DNA from: Acidimicrobiia bacterium
GTDB lineage: Bacteria > Actinomycetota > Acidimicrobiia > Spongiisociales > ZC4RG35
Direction of reading: 5' to 3'
Length of the DNA stretch: 43,014 bases
NCBI GenBank assembly: GCA_025928935.1
Contig: JAICNB010000023.1
Coordinates: 1-43,014 of the forward strand
Part shown: positions 292 through 8,952 of the stretch, piece by piece
Layout: every line of letters begins with the position of its first letter
Numbering within the stretch: position 1 is the stretch's first letter
Notes under the pieces: model-generated
Told to the model about the DNA's origin: nothing
Seen by the model: the letters and a program-made list of their open reading frames with translations, nothing else
Databases searched by the model: none
Translations under genes and position numbers: made by a program

Positions 292-3200
292 ATGCCTCCT
301 GCGACCAACGGTTACGCGGTAGACGACTCCGCTGTGGAGTACCGGGTGTTAGGCCCGCTGGCCGCCACCTCCGGGCCCAACCGGGTGCAGCTCGGAGGGA
401 AACGGCAGCGAATGGTCCTCGCCGTCCTCCTCGCCAACGCCAACCGCGTCCTCCCCCAGGACGCACTGGTTGACGCAGTCTGGAACGGCGAAATGCCCGA
501 TAGTGGCGCCCGCAGTCTCCATACCTACGTATCGACATTGCGCAGGACGCTCCACGGGGCCATCGAACGCGACGGCACCGGTTACATCCTCAACGTCGAG
601 CCGGAGCGGGTCGACGCCCTCCGATTCGAACGCCTGGTAACCGAGGCCCGGAGCATGCTCGTGGAGGACACAGCTAGAGCCGGGGACCTGCTGCGTCGTG
701 GCCTCGGCCTCTGGACCGGAACCCCTTATGGGGACCTCGGCTTCGAGCCGGCACTGTTCGACGAGGCGAACCGGCTCGCCGAGAGCCGGGTGGCGGCACT
801 CGAGCTGAGATTCGAGGTCGACCTCCTCCTCGGCGCCCACGAGCAGATCATCCCCGAAATCGAAGCTCTGGTGAGAGAAGAGCCGTTCCGGGAGAGTGTC
901 GCCGGCATGCTCATGCTCGCCCTCTACCGCTCCGGTCGGCAGGCCGAGGCGCTGCGGTTATACGGCGGAGTTCGGGAGCGACTGGTCGAGGAGCTCGGCA
1001 TCGAGCCCGGCCCAGACCTCCAGGACCTCGAGCTGAGGATCCTCGAAGCCGACTCCACCCTGCGCAGCCCACTGGCCGGGAGACGGGTCGCCGCCCTCGA
1101 CCTGATGCGCGGCGCACGCGGCTACGAGATCCACGAGCGAATCGGTGGGACGGAGTTCGGTGATCGATTCCGGGGATTTCACAGCACGATGGCACGCGAG
1201 GTCGGAGTGCTCGTGATCGACCGGTCGCTGGCCGACGCCGCACGGTTCATCCGTCACTTCGAGCCCGAGATGGAGGCCATCGCAAGGCTGGAGCACCCCC
1301 ATCTCGCCCCGGTGCTCGACTACTGGCGCGATCCCAACACCGCCTACGTGATCACCCCCTTCTATCGAGGCGGAACCCTCCAGGAGGCAATCGCCGACCG
1401 ACCGCTCACCTTGGGTGAGGCGATACGGCTCGCCGACCAGCTCTCGGCTGCGCTGGGCTTTCTCCACCGGCAAGGGCGGGTCCATGGCGCCATCTCGGCT
1501 GATTCGGTGCTTCTCGACGAAGACTCGAACGCCTATCTCACCGACATCGGGCTAACGGAAATCACGGGTGGCAGCGACCAGGCCGAGGCGGATGACGTCT
1601 TTCAGCTGGGCAGCCTCATCTACCAGGTCCTCACCCTGCGACGTCCCGACGGGGTGGCCACCCTCAGCGAATGGCGCAGTGACCTGCCCTCCGAGCTCGA
1701 CCACGCCGTCTCCCGAGCCCTCCACCCAAACCCGGGCCTCCGCTACCTCCACGTGGAGGACTTCGCCCGTTCCCTGCGACAAAGCGCCGGTCTCGACATG
1801 GTCGCGGTCCCAGGTGAGGGGATTCGAAAGGTCGACCGACGCAACCCCTATAAAGGGCTGAGGGCGTTCCAAGAGGCGGATGCATCCGACTTCCACGGAC
1901 GCGACGCCCTGGTCGAAGAGTTGGTCGAGGCTCTCACCTCAAGCCGGCTCGTCGCCCTGGTCGGCCCGTCGGGCTCGGGGAAGTCCTCTGCAGTGCGCGC
2001 CGGGCTTCTCCCCAGGCTGAGACAGGGGGCAATCCCCTCCTCGCGGGACTGGCTGATCACCGACATGTTCCCCGGCGCCCATCCCTTCGAAGCACTGGAG
2101 GCAGCCCTCCTCCGGGTGGCGGTCATCCGGCCGACGGATCTCTACGGCGCATTGACAGCCGACTCGGAGGGTTTGAGCGGCGTCGTCGACCAGCTTGTGC
2201 CCTCGGAAGAATCAGAGATCCTCATAGTCGTCGACCAGTTCGAAGAGCTGTTCTCGATGGTCGCCTCCGCCTCTCAGCGAAAGCTGTTCCTCGACACTCT
2301 GGTCGCAGCCACTGCGTCCCAAGGCAGGCTCCGCCTCGTGCTCACCCTGCGCGCCGACTTCTTCGATCATCCGCTGCAGTATCCCGAGTTCGCCGAGGTC
2401 TTCGGCTCCAACGTGGTCACGGTCAGTCCGCCTACCCGCGACAGCCTGGCCCGGGCGATAACCCAACCTGCCCTGAGTGTCGGAGTGAGTCTGGACCCGG
2501 GGCTGGTCACCCGGATCATTGACGACGTCCGGGAACAGCCGGGCGGACTGCCCCTTCTCCAGTTCGCCCTCACCGAGCTGTTCACCCGCCGGGATGGGGA
2601 CATCCTCACGGTCGACGCCTATGAGGCATCGGGGGGCGTCGAGGGCGCTTTGGCGAAACGAGCCGAGGAGGCCTATACCAGCCTGTCGCCTCAGGGGAAG
2701 GAGGCAGCCCGTCAGCTGTTTCTCAGACTGGTCACCGTCGACGAGCTCGCCGACGACACGAGACGCCGAGTCCGGCAGAGCGAATTGCTCGGTCTCGACG
2801 TCGACCGGGGAGTGATGAGTGACATCATGCGGCAGTTCGGCGCACTGCGGTTCCTCTCCTTCGACCGGGACGTGGCGAGCCGGGCGCCGACGGTGGAGTT
2901 GGCCCATGAGGCACTGCTCCGAGAGTGGCATCGTCTCCGAAGCTGGATCGACGAAAGACGGGAAGACCTGCTGATCCATCGTCGGATCCAGCTCACGTTC
3001 CAGGAGTGGCATGACAGCGGCGAAGATGCGAGCTATCTGCTGCGAGGGAACCGACTCGAGCAAGCCCTCGCCTGGGCCGACCGCACCGATCTCGCCGTAT
3101 CCGGCGAGGAGACCAGCTTGATCGACGCCAGCATCGAGGCGGAGAAGGTCGAACGGGCGGAGCGTCAAACCCTCGAAGCGAAGGCGGCGCGTCGGCGCAT

Positions 3201-5448
3201 GGCCGTGATCGGCGCCCTGGCCGGAGGCCTGGTGGTAGCCGGGGTGCTCGGCGCGGTGGCCCTCGATCGTGCCGGGGACGCCCGAGTGAGCGCCGCTGAA
3301 GCCACCGCCCGTGACCTGGCCTCGGCCGCTATCGCCTCCATCGACGAGGACCCCGAGCTCGGGGTCCTGCTCTCACTGGAGGCAATCGCCGCCACCGACA
3401 CGGTGGGAGTGGAGACGGTCCCCGAGGCCGGGTCGGCACTACGCACCACCCTGGCCCATACCCGTATCGAGGCAAGGCTCCCCACCGGATTCAATGCGGT
3501 CGCGTTCAGCATTGATGGGACCCGGGTGGTCACCGACGCTGCGACAGACCGTTCCACGCTTCACCTCTGGGATGCCGCCTCGACCCGCCCGCTCGCGCAA
3601 TGGTCCGGGTCAGACCAGGGCGGGTTCCCCCCGGGCGAGATCACAAAGGTGAGGCTCTCCCCCGACAACGGACTGTTTGCCGCGACCTGGAACACCAACG
3701 TCGAACAGTTCGACGCCGAGAGCACGGTTGCCCTGACCCTCCACGACCCTGACACCCTTGACCTGGAGCAGATTCTTATGGGTCCGCCCGGCACATATGA
3801 CGCTCCGAGCTTTGGGGCCAAAGATCTCATCGCGGCCAGCTTTATCGGAGACACCGGCGAGGGGGCGCAGGTATGGGACCGGGAGACCGGAGAGGTGGTC
3901 GGAACATTCGTCTCCGACACCGCGCTCTCGGGTGAGCTCATCCCCGGCACCACCACACTGGTTCTGGCCCATGGCGAGAGCCATGATGATGGTGGAGGGC
4001 TGGTCGAGACGGCCCACCTCCAAGCTGTCGACGTGATCACGTCAGAAGAGGTCTGGAGCGTCCCCGGACTAGGTATCGATCCCGGTCTGGTGTGGCTCAG
4101 CCCTGATGGGACGAAAGCGGCGATCGGGGGGGAGGACCTCGTCGAAATCTGGGATCTGGACACTCAGGACTTGATGCAATCCCATCCCCATCCTGACCCA
4201 CAGGTCATGACCTGGTCCGGAAACGGCTCACGGCTGGCGGTCAGTGGCAACGACGCCGACGTCACCATTCTCGATCAGGGCCTCGGGTGGGAGCCGGGTC
4301 TCGTCCTGACCGGTCACAGCACCTCGGTATGGGCCACATCGTTTCACCCGAGCGGGGAAACCCTCGCCTCCGCCTCAGAGGATGGAGCGGTCCTGATCTG
4401 GGATGTCACCGAGGCCGGGGCAGTCGGGGATGAAGCGGTCGCCCTAGGAACCCCGGTCGGTCTTATCTTCCTCGGTCCCGACAGTCGGATGATCGCCGGA
4501 TCCGGATCAGGAGCCATGACCGTCGACCTCACCACCGGAGGCGTGGAGGCAACCCTGCCGATCAATCAACCAACCGATCTCATCCCCAACGACCGGTTGA
4601 CCACGGTGGCCGGCGTGAACTTTGTCGACCCGGGACCCGTCGCCGGCCGCCTGGTCGACGCCGGAAGTGGACAGATCACGGAAGAGTTCTCGGACTGTCT
4701 CCTCCCAAGAGGGATCTCCTTCGACGACAGACTGGTGGTTCTCGATGCAGTCGAGGCGTGTGAACCCGGGATCACGACCACTCCGAGCCAGGTTCTTGAT
4801 CTCGAGACAGGCGACATCGTCATCGACTTAGGCGGACGAAACGTGCAGAGGGCAGTCTTCTCGCCGGAGGCCTATGACGGACCCACATTCGTCGCGGTCA
4901 AAAGCAACGACACCGAGGTAGAGATCTACTCCCTCAAAGACCGCGAGCTGGTCACCTCGTACTCTGCCGAAGACCTCGGTGTCACCGTCTTCGGGGTGTT
5001 GTCATTGGACCCTGAAGGCAGGTATCTGGGAATTGGGACCCAAGGTCGCAACTCGATCGTGATCGACATGACATCGGTAATGGCCGGCGAAGCCAGGATG
5101 GACGCGGTCATCTTCAACATGGAAGGCAACAACGCCAATGCCCCGCAGTTCCGGGTCACCAGCGATGGCATCGGGGCGAGCGCCTCCTTCGACCCTGTCT
5201 ACCGTGTTTGGGACATCAACACAGAAGAGCTGTTGTTCGAAATCAGGGTGGACGGTCTCGACGATGTCGGCGCAGTCAACTTCACGCCAGACGGCACCCA
5301 GCTCGCCTACGAGGACGCCAATGGTGTCATCAGGTTCACCCCTCTCGACACGGGCGAAGTCATCGAGCGCGCCCGTGCCACAGTGACCAGAGGCCTGACC
5401 GGCGACGAATGCCTTCAGTACTTCAAGACCGCCAAATGTGTCGGTTAG
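292..5448 (+). CDS. BTAD regulator - pseudokinase - nSTAND1 NTPase - WD40 fusion protein
   Basis: A 1718-residue multidomain signalling protein. Residues about 15-260 are a winged-helix DNA-binding domain plus BTAD domain, as in SARP/AfsR regulators. About 278-500 is a Ser/Thr kinase fold. The catalytic loop reads HGAISADS at 398-405, so the HRD Asp, the Lys and the Asn are A400, S402 and S405; the VAIK lysine appears to be Asp, while D418 of the DFG motif (DIG) remains. It is therefore probably a pseudokinase. An nSTAND1 NTPase follows, with Walker A GPSGSGKS at 558-565 and Walker B IVVDQFEE around D648. A single membrane segment lies at 970-991, then degenerate WD40 repeats to the end (best one GHSTSVWATSFHPSGE near 1342). 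The C-terminal Cys-containing tail is usual in nSTAND1-WD40 proteins. The ATG has a strong GAGGAGG ribosome site. The topology puts the DNA-binding, kinase and NTPase parts inside and the WD40 part outside. The ligand and target genes are unknown. Confidence 0.9.
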   Translation: MPPATNGYAVDDSAVEYRVLGPLAATSGPNRVQLGGKRQRMVLAVLLANANRVLPQDALVDAVWNGEMPDSGARSLHTYVSTLRRTLHGAIERDGTGYILNVEPERVDALRFERLVTEARSMLVEDTARAGDLLRRGLGLWTGTPYGDLGFEPALFDEANRLAESRVAALELRFEVDLLLGAHEQIIPEIEALVREEPFRESVAGMLMLALYRSGRQAEALRLYGGVRERLVEELGIEPGPDLQDLELRILEADSTLRSPLAGRRVAALDLMRGARGYEIHERIGGTEFGDRFRGFHSTMAREVGVLVIDRSLADAARFIRHFEPEMEAIARLEHPHLAPVLDYWRDPNTAYVITPFYRGGTLQEAIADRPLTLGEAIRLADQLSAALGFLHRQGRVHGAISADSVLLDEDSNAYLTDIGLTEITGGSDQAEADDVFQLGSLIYQVLTLRRPDGVATLSEWRSDLPSELDHAVSRALHPNPGLRYLHVEDFARSLRQSAGLDMVAVPGEGIRKVDRRNPYKGLRAFQEADASDFHGRDALVEELVEALTSSRLVALVGPSGSGKSSAVRAGLLPRLRQGAIPSSRDWLITDMFPGAHPFEALEAALLRVAVIRPTDLYGALTADSEGLSGVVDQLVPSEESEILIVVDQFEELFSMVASASQRKLFLDTLVAATASQGRLRLVLTLRADFFDHPLQYPEFAEVFGSNVVTVSPPTRDSLARAITQPALSVGVSLDPGLVTRIIDDVREQPGGLPLLQFALTELFTRRDGDILTVDAYEASGGVEGALAKRAEEAYTSLSPQGKEAARQLFLRLVTVDELADDTRRRVRQSELLGLDVDRGVMSDIMRQFGALRFLSFDRDVASRAPTVELAHEALLREWHRLRSWIDERREDLLIHRRIQLTFQEWHDSGEDASYLLRGNRLEQALAWADRTDLAVSGEETSLIDASIEAEKVERAERQTLEAKAARRRMAVIGALAGGLVVAGVLGAVALDRAGDARVSAAEATARDLASAAIASIDEDPELGVLLSLEAIAATDTVGVETVPEAGSALRTTLAHTRIEARLPTGFNAVAFSIDGTRVVTDAATDRSTLHLWDAASTRPLAQWSGSDQGGFPPGEITKVRLSPDNGLFAATWNTNVEQFDAESTVALTLHDPDTLDLEQILMGPPGTYDAPSFGAKDLIAASFIGDTGEGAQVWDRETGEVVGTFVSDTALSGELIPGTTTLVLAHGESHDDGGGLVETAHLQAVDVITSEEVWSVPGLGIDPGLVWLSPDGTKAAIGGEDLVEIWDLDTQDLMQSHPHPDPQVMTWSGNGSRLAVSGNDADVTILDQGLGWEPGLVLTGHSTSVWATSFHPSGETLASASEDGAVLIWDVTEAGAVGDEAVALGTPVGLIFLGPDSRMIAGSGSGAMTVDLTTGGVEATLPINQPTDLIPNDRLTTVAGVNFVDPGPVAGRLVDAGSGQITEEFSDCLLPRGISFDDRLVVLDAVEACEPGITTTPSQVLDLETGDIVIDLGGRNVQRAVFSPEAYDGPTFVAVKSNDTEVEIYSLKDRELVTSYSAEDLGVTVFGVLSLDPEGRYLGIGTQGRNSIVIDMTSVMAGEARMDAVIFNMEGNNANAPQFRVTSDGIGASASFDPVYRVWDINTEELLFEIRVDGLDDVGAVNFTPDGTQLAYEDANGVIRFTPLDTGEVIERARATVTRGLTGDECLQYFKTAKCVG

Positions 5449-5550
5449 CTGACTCTCTCAATGGCTGTGAAGCCAAACGGGTGTGAGTCCGTGAGCACCT
5501 TTCTGGACAAGAGGTGCTTCGGCGCAGAATCCTGTGGCGCAGGAGGCGAA

Positions 5551-5597
5551 ATCGGTGGAGCTGACGGGATTTGAACCTGCGACCCCCTCGTTGCGAA
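5551..5597 (-). repeat. Partial tRNA-Ala 3' half, left copy of 47-bp direct repeat (att-like)
   Basis: These 47 bases match 8874-8920 at 45 positions and in the same orientation. They correspond to the acceptor 3' strand, the T arm and part of the anticodon arm of the tRNA-Ala(CGC) at 8879-8952. The two differences fall in the T stem and break a pair, so this copy is not a working tRNA. Duplication of a tRNA 3' end is the typical footprint of site-specific integration. Confidence 0.75.
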
Positions 5598-5607
5598 AGA
5601 TGCGGTC

Positions 5608-5630
5608 AAAAGCCCCTGACCAGGGGTTTT
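5608..5630. terminator. Bidirectional terminator-like hairpin
   Basis: AAAAGCCCCT and AGGGGTTTT pair around a four-base loop (one bulged G), with A4 on one side and T4 on the other, so it could stop transcription on either strand. It sits just inside the left repeat of the island. Confidence 0.5.
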
Positions 5631-5783
5631 GTAGCCATTCCAGGTGCTTGTGGCGCTGTTGTGGCGCCAGCCACGTGAGGCGTGGTAAGACATGTGAGAT
5701 GTGCGGGCCCGCTTCAGCGGCAGTTAGGCCGAGCCTACGTCGTGCCCGGCTTGCTCAACATCAGGGCGAACGTCTGAGGTTGA

Positions 5784-6548
5784 CTATCCGGAGTCCCAGT
5801 CGTCTGTGGCGAGGCTGAAGACCAGCCTGAAGCCCCGACGGTTGTCCCAGGATTGCGTCCGCATTGAGTCGATGATGGCATGGGCTTCATCCAGGTCGGC
5901 TTGGCTCGTGCCCGGTTCCGCCTCGAGGCGGATGGCGACCGTAGTCGCTTCGATGTCGACGATCCATTCCTCTCGTCGATCATCAATTCGTCGATAGGTC
6001 CCATCATGTCCGGCGATGCTGACCGCAGTCGCGTCGCCAACGTCGGCGGGCCTCTCGGACAGGGCATCAATGCGGATTTCGACGTCACCTGATCCGTATC
6101 CGTTGTGCATGAAACCCATTACGCAGGAGGAACCGCAGGCCCCGCCCCAGGAATACAAGCCCGCCGGGTTCTCGGTGGTGCTCGGCCAGCCGTGGACGAC
6201 CTCGCCCAATGTCGTAGTCGGGTCGGGGATGGTTGTGAGCACAGTGGTCGGAGTGGGAACGGTCGTTTGATCGACTACCTGGTCATTGTCTCCACTGAAT
6301 GCGAGATACAACCCGCCCACGGTGAGGATGACGACGAATGCTGCCGCCGCCCAAGCCAGTCCCCGCCCTGGACCGACGGCGAGGGTCTTCACGGACCTAC
6401 GCTCCGGTGAAGAGTGCCTCTCCCATTGTCTGGGTACGACCTGCAGTTCTCCGCTCCGTTCGAGGATGTCCCCGACTGAGAGGGCCCCCTGTTTCTCGTC
6501 GATGAGTCGGCAGTACTCCTGGAGCTGACGGTTGAGATCAACACTCAT
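5784..6548 (-). CDS. Membrane-anchored sigma-factor partner with HNGYGSGDV-type outer domain
   Basis: A 254-residue single-pass membrane protein. The ATG (6548) overlaps the TGA of the sigma gene as ATGA, so the two are translationally coupled, which is the usual arrangement for an anti-sigma factor. Residues 1 to about 60 are the predicted cytoplasmic part with no HxxxCxxC zinc motif. A membrane helix (AWAAAAFVVILTVGGLYLAF) follows, then a Thr/Pro-rich linker and an outer domain of about 145 residues beginning VVHGWP and ending ATDDWDSG. That outer domain is clearly related to the C-terminal domain of the lipoprotein at 7946-8629: both share AGxYS, MHNGYGSGDV, REEW, TVAIRL and DEAHAIIDS. The anti-sigma role is inferred from position and topology; the outer domain is not one I recognise. 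Confidence 0.75.
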   Translation of the reverse strand: MSVDLNRQLQEYCRLIDEKQGALSVGDILERSGELQVVPRQWERHSSPERRSVKTLAVGPGRGLAWAAAAFVVILTVGGLYLAFSGDNDQVVDQTTVPTPTTVLTTIPDPTTTLGEVVHGWPSTTENPAGLYSWGGACGSSCVMGFMHNGYGSGDVEIRIDALSERPADVGDATAVSIAGHDGTYRRIDDRREEWIVDIEATTVAIRLEAEPGTSQADLDEAHAIIDSMRTQSWDNRRGFRLVFSLATDDWDSG

Positions 6549-7012
6549 CGCTCGACCCCTAGCTTGTGACGCAGCTTTCGCATTCCCCGCTCGGCGTGGG
6601 TCTGCACCGTGCTCTTCGCCACCCCCAGGGTTTCGGCCACCTCGGTCATATGCCATCCGTAGCCATGGAGCAACAAGAGAACGGCTCGTTCCTTTTCGGG
6701 GAGAGCAGCAAGGGCGGCCGGCAAACCTGGCTCGAACCATGGTGTCCGGTCCTCCGGGATCGCAGGGAAGACGGGTCTCGACCACGAGAGCAGCTTTCGT
6801 CCTTTGGATCGGCCGACGGTATAGAGATATCCCACCGGGTTGGCCATCACCCCGACTCTTTCCCAATGCTCCCAGCCGTAAGCCAAAGCTTCGGCTGCTG
6901 CCTCCCTACCGGCCTCCAGACCCAACGCTGCGGTCAGAGCGTGACGCAGCCTCCTCTCGTTGGTTTGAACAAATTCGACGAAGCCGTCGGCCCTGATCTG
7001 TTCGGGAAGCAA
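6545..7012 (-). CDS. ECF-type RNA polymerase sigma factor
   Basis: 155 residues with a sigma region 2 (about 15-75, including the NPVGYLYTVGRSKGRK stretch) and a region 4 helix-turn-helix (about 105-150, LPEKERAVLLLLHGYGWHMTEVAETLGVAKSTVQTH split over two helices). It would direct RNA polymerase to a small stress or envelope regulon. The start is TTG at 7012, preceded by AGGAG seven bases upstream. The stop overlaps the start of the membrane partner. It is divergent from the lipoprotein gene at 7156 across a 143-bp region holding a palindrome. The ECF subgroup cannot be assigned by eye. Confidence 0.85.
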   Translation of the reverse strand: MLPEQIRADGFVEFVQTNERRLRHALTAALGLEAGREAAAEALAYGWEHWERVGVMANPVGYLYTVGRSKGRKLLSWSRPVFPAIPEDRTPWFEPGLPAALAALPEKERAVLLLLHGYGWHMTEVAETLGVAKSTVQTHAERGMRKLRHKLGVER

Positions 7013-7057
7013 TCTGTCTCCTGAGCTAACACTTGATAAAGCTCAGCGGATCGTCAG

Positions 7058-7130
7058 CGTACGACACGAAACTCGGGAAGGGTTATCGAAGTGCCTGGGA
7101 GTGCCGGGCAGAAACTTCTTGTCGTACGAC
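7058..7130. promoter_or_regulatory. Inverted repeat CGTACGACA / TGTCGTACG in divergent promoter region
   Basis: CGTACGACA (7058-7066) and its complement TGTCGTACG (7120-7128) face each other across 53 bases. The right arm extends to the perfect palindrome GTCGTACGAC (7121-7130). Two GAAACT words (about 7068 and 7111) resemble ECF -35 elements facing the lipoprotein gene. The site lies between the sigma gene and the lipoprotein gene, so control of both is plausible. Confidence 0.4.
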
Positions 7131-7155
7131 CGTGTTCGTTCAGGCTTTCTCAATC

Positions 7156-7902
7156 ATGCTGCAAAGGAAGCTGCGAAACATCGGGCTCGTGGCCGCCGTC
7201 CTGGCGTTGGCTGCCTGCTCCACTCCAATCGGGCAAAATCCATCTACAACCAATAATCCGTTCCCGTCGAGCACCCTGGCCCCGGCAACCCCGACCACGA
7301 CCGCGACCGCCGACCCGCCGGCCGACCCCGAATGGCCATCAGAAGGACCGATAGAACCGGGCACCCACCACCTCGCGCCTTCAGAATGGTCCGTCGCCGG
7401 TTTGACCTTGACCATTCCCGAAGGCTGGGAAACCGAACTCGGCCCACCCACCGGCATCAAACACCCTGACCGAGACGGCGAGCTGGCCTTCTATTTCGTG
7501 ACCGTCGACAGGATCTTCTCCGATCCGTGCGAAGGAATCGAAGGAGAGAAAATCGGCCCCAGCGTCGGTGATCTGGTCACGGCCCTGGTCGAACAGCCTG
7601 TCACCGAGACCAGTGAGCCGGTCGACACGACGCTGGGAGGCTTACCGGCAACGCAGATCCTGCTGACAGTCCCCGCCGGTTTCGACACCACAGAGTGCAA
7701 CGCCTCCGTAGGTCTTCAGATCTGGTACAGCCAGCCAGCAGACAAGTATCTGGTGGCGTTGGCTGACGGCACAGTGGCCATCTACATCCTCGACGTGAAC
7801 GGCGAACGCCAGGTGTTCTACACCCAGCACCAAGTCGGAACTTCAGCCAATGACCTCGACGAGATGCGAATCATTCAAGAGTCGATCCACATCGACGCGT
7901 AG
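7156..7902 (+). CDS. Secreted lipoprotein of unknown function
   Basis: 248 residues. The N terminus is a lipoprotein signal (MLQRKLRN, then a hydrophobic core ending ALAAC with the lipidated Cys at 21). A Thr/Pro-rich spacer of about 45 residues follows, then a soluble domain with two further Cys (DPCEG and TTECN). The frame is open further upstream, but only the ATG at 7156 places the signal peptide at the N terminus. The mature part (LTLTIPEGWE... and ...DEMRIIQESIHID) looks like domains that measure or bind something at the outer membrane face of actinobacteria. It is divergent from the sigma gene and 43 bp ahead of another lipoprotein. No named family is recognised. Confidence 0.75.
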   Translation: MLQRKLRNIGLVAAVLALAACSTPIGQNPSTTNNPFPSSTLAPATPTTTATADPPADPEWPSEGPIEPGTHHLAPSEWSVAGLTLTIPEGWETELGPPTGIKHPDRDGELAFYFVTVDRIFSDPCEGIEGEKIGPSVGDLVTALVEQPVTETSEPVDTTLGGLPATQILLTVPAGFDTTECNASVGLQIWYSQPADKYLVALADGTVAIYILDVNGERQVFYTQHQVGTSANDLDEMRIIQESIHIDA

Positions 7903-7945
7903 CGAGTCGGCGTTGAAGCCTGGACGCACGGAAGGAAAGACCGAG

Positions 7946-8629
7946 ATGAGGGATCGCTTTGGACGTGGGGTTGCGGTGGCCGTGCTGCTCGCGATCCTCA
8001 CCGGATGCGTGGGAGGCGTGACCGGTGAGCCCCCGACGGCCACTGTCGGTGGGGCCGGTTCCAAGACCGCCACCACGGAGGCGACCACCACCGCCGAGAC
8101 GACCACCACCACCACGCAAGCGACCACCACCACGGAGGCGACCAAAAGGTCGGAGGACGAGGTCGTCCACGGCTGGCCTACCGGCTCGCGGAACCTGGCG
8201 GGCGTGTACTCGCTGGACTGGACCCGCTGCATAGTCTCCAGGATTGATGGCACTACATCCGGCTGCAATGTCGGTTGGATGCACAACGGCTACGGGTCAG
8301 GTGACGTTCAAATCACCATTGATATCCTGCCCGCGCTGCCCCCCATCGATGACGGGTCGACCGCGGTCACCCTCGCTGCGCATGACGCGCTCTACCTACG
8401 GCGCAGCAATTGGCGAGAGGAGTGGTTCGTTGACGTTGATGGGAAGACGGTAGCCATCCGCCTTAATGCGGTCCAGCAAACGAGCCAGGCCGACATGGAT
8501 GAAGCCCACGCCATCATCGACTCGATTCGTATAGAACCGACGGACTCGATCCGTACAGCACCGGAGGACAACGACTGGGGTTTCATGGTGGTGTTCACAC
8601 TCGCCACAGACGACTGGGACTCCGGATAG
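7946..8629 (+). CDS. Lipoprotein with HNGYGSGDV-type domain, paralogous to the sigma partner's outer domain
   Basis: 227 residues. The start is chosen at 7946 because a GGAAGG-like site precedes it and the signal peptide (MRDRFGRG... ending LTGC, lipidated Cys 21) begins there. A Thr-rich low-complexity linker (about residues 45-72) leads into a domain of about 150 residues that begins VVHGWP and ends ATDDWDSG. This domain is collinear with the outer domain of the membrane protein at 5784-6548. Conserved pieces include GWMHNGYGSGDV, REEWFVDV, TVAIRL, TSQAD and DEAHAIIDS. It has two cysteines around the variable loop. A plausible role is a secreted competitor or co-receptor of the sigma partner; that is inference. 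Confidence 0.8.
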   Translation: MRDRFGRGVAVAVLLAILTGCVGGVTGEPPTATVGGAGSKTATTEATTTAETTTTTTQATTTTEATKRSEDEVVHGWPTGSRNLAGVYSLDWTRCIVSRIDGTTSGCNVGWMHNGYGSGDVQITIDILPALPPIDDGSTAVTLAAHDALYLRRSNWREEWFVDVDGKTVAIRLNAVQQTSQADMDEAHAIIDSIRIEPTDSIRTAPEDNDWGFMVVFTLATDDWDSG

Positions 8630-8873
8630 CCGCGAATCTCTGTCAGAGCGTGCACTCGAGCAGGCCCCCCTTGACTGCAGATCTCTCGTCTACATTGAAG
8701 AACCTGTGAGCATCGTATGAGGCCCCCGGTGTGATGCCTCCCTGAGACTTGCTGAGACTTGACAGCAGCTTCCTCCGCCCCTCGAGCGACGGCATCGACG
8801 CCGAACAGATCCGCCGTGTCGCCGCTTATGTAGCGAACAGAGACGAGCCGACAACGCCCTGACCAGGTCGGCG

Positions 8874-8920
8874 ATCGGTGGAGCTGACGGGATTTGAACC
8901 CGTGACCCCCTCGTTGCGAA
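8874..8920 (-). repeat. Right copy of the 47-bp direct repeat (within tRNA-Ala 3' half)
   Basis: Matches 5551-5597 at 45 of 47 bases. It covers the acceptor 3' strand, T arm and part of the anticodon arm of the intact tRNA plus five bases beyond the tRNA end, as expected for an attachment core. Confidence 0.75.
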
Positions 8921-8952
8921 CGAGGTGCTCTGCCAGGCTGAGCTACAGCCCC
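8879..8952 (-). tRNA. tRNA-Ala(CGC)
   Basis: Read on the minus strand, a full cloverleaf is seen: acceptor GGGGCTG with CAGCTCC, D stem GCTC/GAGC, anticodon stem CCTCG/CGAGG with loop TTCGCAA (anticodon CGC), and T stem ACGGG/CCCGT with loop TTCAAAT. The G3:U70 pair that marks alanine tRNAs is present. 74 nt; the CCA end is not encoded (the next bases are CCG). A partial copy lies at 5551-5597. Confidence 0.95.

Follow-up and report, generated by a model that had tools for sequence, protein, structure and literature searches.

A block beside tRNA-Ala(CGC) in an Acidimicrobiia genome as a probable cassette of a tandem array without its own integrase

In Dehalococcoides, ssrA-specific islands stand in tandem downstream of one RNA gene, whose 3' end is repeated directly, over 20 bp, at their boundaries; a serine recombinase is encoded at this locus by 16 of the islands, and 15 have no integration module and were suggested to be cis-mobilizable and to move by accretion (PMC3146451). 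Gene cassettes marked by tRNA repeats also form additive flexible genomic islands in Ca. Actinomarinales, with recent insertions at several tRNAs, as described in the accessible part of that account (PMC7771536), and the accessible part of another describes such an additive island, fGI-2, in Ca. Methylopumilus, again with tRNA-repeat-marked cassettes and short repeats (PMC10872708). Tycheposons, for their part, are tRNA-anchored cargo elements with a tyrosine recombinase. Integrons and the clusters of attC sites lacking integron integrases (CALINs) are arrays of small cassettes whose recombination sites lie in one orientation, and some of them have no integrase. Here we examine a window comprising the whole of a 43,014-base contig (C39; JAICNB010000023.1) from the Acidimicrobiia assembly GCA_025928935.1 (called G000 below; 3.08 Mb, 98.5% complete), and in particular its stretch 5551-8952, which ends in a tRNA-Ala(CGC) gene. 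We think it likely that this stretch is an integrated cassette of a tandem array at that single tRNA, moved by an integrase acting in trans.

The locus shares with Dehalococcoides the tandem array at an RNA gene, and it differs in that no member bears a recombinase and in that the site is an anticodon-loop core of tRNA-Ala with two distant arms. Ca. Actinomarinales, which we take to be members of Acidimicrobiia too, use a different locus in what is apparently a different order, and the accessible part of that account says nothing of long two-armed sites, constantly spaced and chained at a single tRNA; likewise, arms are not described in the corresponding part on fGI-2, whose host belongs to the Methylophilaceae (Proteobacteria). 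Compared with integrons and CALINs, the site is tRNA-derived with distant arms and is not an attC, no IntI is present, and a cassette may carry many genes in either orientation; indeed, the pairing of attC with IntI was not found, and G000 encodes no tyrosine recombinase other than Xer types. Unlike tycheposons, the cassettes hold no recombinase and most are shorter, and we do not class them as such. The arrangement that does fit is that of a cis-mobilizable element (CIME), with left and right attachment sites and no integration or transfer genes of its own, one arm being missing and one truncated in the window; membership is incomplete because no partner element was found. The locus thus works like a cis-mobilizable or additive-island array, and what it adds is the fixed-spacing two-armed site, occurring in chains at one tRNA, with no recombinase-bearing member.

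The direct repeat and its two-armed site

The tRNA-Ala(CGC) gene lies at 8877-8952 on the minus strand (ARAGORN and Rfam) and is the only copy in G000. A first-pass annotation of the window had reported a 47-bp repeat, 45 bases identical, that places a partial 3' half of this tRNA at 5551-5597 opposite the intact gene, with only a sigma factor, its membrane partner and two lipoproteins, and no integrase, between the copies, and each of these statements holds. The copy at 8874-8920 (plus strand) is the 3' half of the intact tRNA up to the anticodon loop, and that at 5551-5597 (plus strand), in direct orientation and with mismatches at 5578 and 5580, is an attachment-site core. A 30-base core of the repeat is present at two places in the window but was absent from all 100 shuffled versions. 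Identity ends at the anticodon loop, where GTTGCGAA is followed by AGATG in place of CGAGG, and for this reason the crossover was presumably there. A weak match to transfer-messenger RNA at 5553-5616 is below the cut-off and reflects the tRNA fragment. The repeat is oriented as expected of an element inserted downstream of the tRNA, and the locus has the form of a genomic island, with the whole tRNA gene at one boundary and, at the opposite one, a second copy of its 3' part in direct orientation; the tRNA would be the integration target, and the inserted cassette would supply its 3' half.

The repeat proves to be a mere core of a longer, two-armed site, which recurs about 25 times in G000 and its Acidimicrobiia relatives. 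At each site the core is a tRNA 3' half that stops at the anticodon loop; hairpins flank it on either side, and the arm repeat TGTGGNRCGNNTGTGG lies about 100 bp to the left and about 80 bp to the right of a fixed point in the core. The left arm repeat TGTGGNRCGCCTGTGG stands 99-103 bases left at nearly all sites, and the right arm repeat TGTGGCGCGGCTGTGG stands 47-52 bases past the core; for repeats with one mismatch or none, the positions are nearly always -99 to -102 and +47 to +52, the one exception being at -115. The hairpins GCCCTGACCAGGGC and AAAACCCCTGACCAGGGGTTTT flank the core on its two sides, and a further hairpin, GAGCACCTC...GAGGTGCTC, stands outside the left arm. The exact arm motif is found in 38 of 231 fetched loci and, where present, accompanies such sites, while on C30, a second G000 contig, three near-exact copies (one mismatch allowed) compare with 0.03 expected. 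Integrases of the lambda type act on attachment sites with arm-type binding sites, and the anatomy suggests that the present site is likewise one for a tyrosine integrase. Folding of the single strand is not unusual (z -1.35), which does not favour an attC-like folded substrate. The outer hairpin of the left arm resembles an inverted tRNA-Ala anticodon arm, and searching with its profile gives opposite-strand matches to several intact tRNAs, with E values of about 5e-5 to 3e-3 (noted at L041:471-558, L049:1227-1312, L039:10049-10135 and L091:18470-18600, among the fetched loci).

In the window, the inner flank of the partial copy (5598-5694) is conserved at the two C30 copies of G000 and in the genomes G001, G002, G006 and G013. 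It contains a terminator-like hairpin with A and T runs, AAAAGCCCCTGACCAGGGGTTTT, conserved on the inner side of the core (5608-5630); the right arm repeat TGTGGCGCTGTTGTGG, at the constant distance from the core and probably an arm-binding site of the integrase (5649-5664, plus strand); and the GTGAG-rich outer tail of the right arm, which aligns with other sites (5665-5694, plus strand). Just outside the block, a truncated left arm of the neighbouring cassette, consisting of the hairpin GAGCACCT...AGGTGCT plus CCTGTGGCGCAGGAGG (5493-5546, plus strand; profile E 4.8e-7), lies about 65 bp nearer the core than at other sites. At the opposite end, the hairpin CGCCCTGACCAGGTCGGCG beside the tRNA 3' end (8855-8873) is one found at many such sites, and the left arm expected about 100 bp from it is missing in the window. 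Both window sites are thus partly decayed, and this cassette may no longer move as a result. A short stretch near the tRNA, CTGAGACTTGCTGAGACTTGAC (8741-8762), is like the outer tail of the right arm and is possibly the leftover of another site.

Arrays and shared cassettes in related genomes

All compared genomes are fragmented assemblies, one per species. Where a site-profile search found several sites on one contig, they always had one orientation, and the enclosed blocks ran from about 1 to 9.5 kb. On C30, for example, two sites in the same orientation are 9.5 kb apart and match the arm at 5555-5694 at about 83%; in addition, there are two sites on C84 of G001, three on C222 and two on C88 of G002, and single ones on C166 and C1 of G002 and C237 of G006. 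Three G006 contigs overlap at 97.5% and 98.7%, giving an array of about 19 kb with at least six sites in one orientation. Overall, G002 and G006 have many matches to the profile, G001 and G013 fewer. At the intact tRNAs of G001, G002, G013 and G015 the left arm stands at its expected distance, which implies that their 3' ends come from an inserted cassette. The left arm that survives in the window is part of whatever stands to its left, and so the STAND regulator gene at 292-5448 is probably the next cassette. The pattern is that of an additive island, with variable cassettes, presumably all linked to one tRNA, and tRNA-fragment repeats between them, and there is a strong case that the window block is one cassette of such a tandem array.

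Comparison of sequences also shows the content of the arrays to be lineage-specific. Beyond the tRNA, the flank is syntenic with the congeners G001 and G002 at 79-89% DNA identity, and the partner and lipoprotein genes of the block are absent at full length from these close relatives; indeed, no full-length match to the membrane partner or the first lipoprotein was found in G001, G002 or 31 other genomes of the family, among which partial relatives of the membrane partner do occur. Together with the conserved attachment sites at its ends, this supports the earlier idea of a tRNA-integrated unit without an integrase. A right-arm search independent of the core, made to look for the same block at other tRNAs, matched only tRNA-Ala(CGC)-type sites, in 5 of 138 genomes. 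Cassette DNA is common to different genera: G002 and G006 have 880 bp in common at 90.8% identity, G000 and G006 483 bp at 92.3%, and G001 and G006 3.8 kb at 83%, this last stretch ending within about 100-120 bp of the left arm in both, as against 54-77% identity for core proteins of G002 and G006.

In three genera without arms (g4, g6 and g9; genomes G005 and G021, G007, and G010) the tRNA abuts a conserved lipoprotein-rsmI-tatD-rsmA cluster, which is the unoccupied site in relatives and not a same-species empty site. In the genus of the window, the rsmI cluster has other neighbours, beside formate dehydrogenase-like genes on another contig, and has no site. Nor did rsmI mark the distal end of an array in two further genomes: it is 72 kb from the partial copy in G013 and 165 kb from the tRNA in G015, with no further sites in between.

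The recombinase and the rival explanations

No cassette that was read contains a recombinase. The two tyrosine recombinases of G000 adjoin alanine dehydrogenase in one case and lie between dprA and a WhiG-like sigma gene in the other, typical XerD and XerC settings, and all complete tyrosine recombinases of the G000 and G002 assemblies are XerC/XerD-like. Serine recombinases are absent from G000, and a single one, in G006, was seen among the genomes tested. As cognate enzymes we rejected the third tyrosine recombinases of G001, G006 and G013, which have no linked site, and that of G002, which is a fragment, as well as the integrases beside tRNA-Ala(CGC) in G014, G024 and G033, whose flanks are different. 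These last belong to elements at that tRNA with a tyrosine integrase of their own (L092:16719-17933, L186:1711-2844 and L187:1674-2825). A related autonomous element with the same sites was found neither in the order nor in a pattern scan of GTDB, viral contigs, phages and plasmids; in GTDB the exact pattern matched contigs from three assemblies and no others, all of Acidimicrobiia and apparently identical with G002, G006 and G013.

We therefore think that the enzyme was supplied in trans, and the likely steps are as follows. Each cassette would have one two-armed attachment site with a core copying the tRNA 3' half, and a tyrosine integrase, encoded by a helper element or since lost, would join a circular cassette to the tRNA by recombination at its anticodon-loop core. 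The incoming cassette would restore the tRNA 3' half and displace the older half, and the older cassettes, downstream, so that repeated insertion would build an array whose youngest member adjoins the tRNA. Hairpin terminators where cassettes meet may shield the cargo of neighbours from each other. Several points weigh against this account. The C30 array is physically unjoined to the tRNA contig, and the assemblies of all genomes are fragmented. The left arm is displaced at one site, and several sites have only one arm. With one genome per species and no reads, no excision was seen, nor an empty site in the same species. In addition, no arm-linked integrase turned up in the genomes, phages, plasmids and viral contigs that were searched, and the class of the enzyme is for that reason judged from the anatomy of the site. 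Fragmentation could hide the enzyme, which the 98.5% completeness of G000 makes less likely.

Among the other explanations, a stable capture system resembling an integron seems to us rather unlikely: here the two-armed tRNA-Ala anticodon-loop site, with its tRNA-like hairpin, would define small recombinase-less cassettes, and an enzyme resident in the host, whether Xer or one so far unrecognised, would act in trans on all of them. It is also unlikely that the block is a single ordinary tRNA-integrated island, a prophage or integrative element whose integrase was deleted, the partial tRNA being a relic and no array existing. The window by itself does show one block with two partly decayed sites and an apparent cytochrome c remnant beside the tRNA, and integrase-bearing elements do use tRNA-Ala(CGC) in the related genera of G014, G024 and G033, but sites with conserved arms repeat on one contig, in the same orientation, in several genomes, blocks of about 1 kb could hardly have held a full element, and the blocks contain no integrase remnant that we could find. 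Movement of the cassettes by the host's XerC and XerD, in the manner of phages that integrate at dif, would make use of the sole complete tyrosine recombinases that the assemblies of G000 and G002 contain; we hold it to be improbable, since the core is a tRNA anticodon arm in which no likeness to dif was noticed (no systematic comparison was made), and distant arm repeats of constant spacing are in keeping with a phage-type integrase that has an arm-binding domain. Finally, a small mobile repeat that acquired the tRNA 3' half and spread by transposition would explain a repeated, hairpin-bearing unit of a few hundred bases, but it is highly improbable given that neighbouring sites all point the same way, that homologous cargo lies between sites in different genera and that no transposase or target duplication was seen.

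Cargo of the cassettes and its meaning

What the array at tRNA-Ala(CGC) carries is mixed. In the window block, the membrane partner of the sigma factor (5784-6548, minus strand), a probable anti-sigma factor, has one transmembrane segment and a C-terminal outer domain with no Pfam match, and it is followed by the extracytoplasmic function (ECF)-type sigma factor itself (6545-7012, minus strand; Sigma70_r4_2, E 1.4e-11) and, on the plus strand, by the first (7156-7902) and second (7946-8629) lipoproteins; an integrase gene, as an island might have of its own, is absent from the block. The partner's outer domain recurs, inverted and diverged (53% identity), as the C-terminal domain of the second lipoprotein. 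The duplicated stretches, 5784-6207 and 8155-8629, are inverted and 71-79% identical, the outer domain now being a free lipoprotein. A reading frame beside the tRNA, DGIDAEQIRRVAAYVANRDEP (8795-8863), resembles by eye the remnant of a cytochrome c C-terminus.

The window sigma factor is 52% identical to one in a G006 cassette, and related sigma genes occur in 133 of the 137 genomes of the order, so that the sigma module is common cargo and not the point of the system. To the left, the STAND gene (plus strand) encodes a 1718-residue regulator with the order SARP/BTAD, kinase-like, nSTAND1 and WD40, probably the cargo of the next cassette. The first-pass interpretation is supported as to a tRNA-integrated unit. 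Its emphasis on a sigma-factor cassette is not supported, since almost all genomes of the order have paralogues of this sigma type and the cassettes carry mixed cargo, and its proposed test errs in taking the tRNA joined to the STAND gene as the empty site, when that gene is probably a neighbouring cassette. A BTAD regulator beside a decayed site in G018 is 40% identical to the window regulator over the first 240 residues. The PADLOC matches shown for the 292-5448 fusion concern the kinase part only. Cargo on C30 includes a FecCD-type ABC transporter, a two-component system and an APH-family protein, and other cassettes carry Hsp20, OsmC, SufBD, Rrf2 and SnoaL-like proteins, among others.

Two further observations come from other genomes. 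Similar partial 3' halves of tRNA-Ala(GGC) in G025, G012 and G014 (L204, L202 and L211) suggest a second tRNA-Ala hotspot with elements of its own, and in G019 a decayed partial copy stands 12.4 kb from tRNA-Ala(CGC), with a heme-biosynthesis-like cluster (L080:2084-14570) in between.

The arrays provide a defined recombination site for which metagenomes can be searched. They indicate that uncultured Acidimicrobiia gather regulators, iron-type transporters, stress proteins and other genes as interchangeable packets at one tRNA, and if the enzyme does act in trans, a single helper could carry numerous unlinked cargo genes from genus to genus. The genome seems to gather genes at one spot using borrowed machinery.

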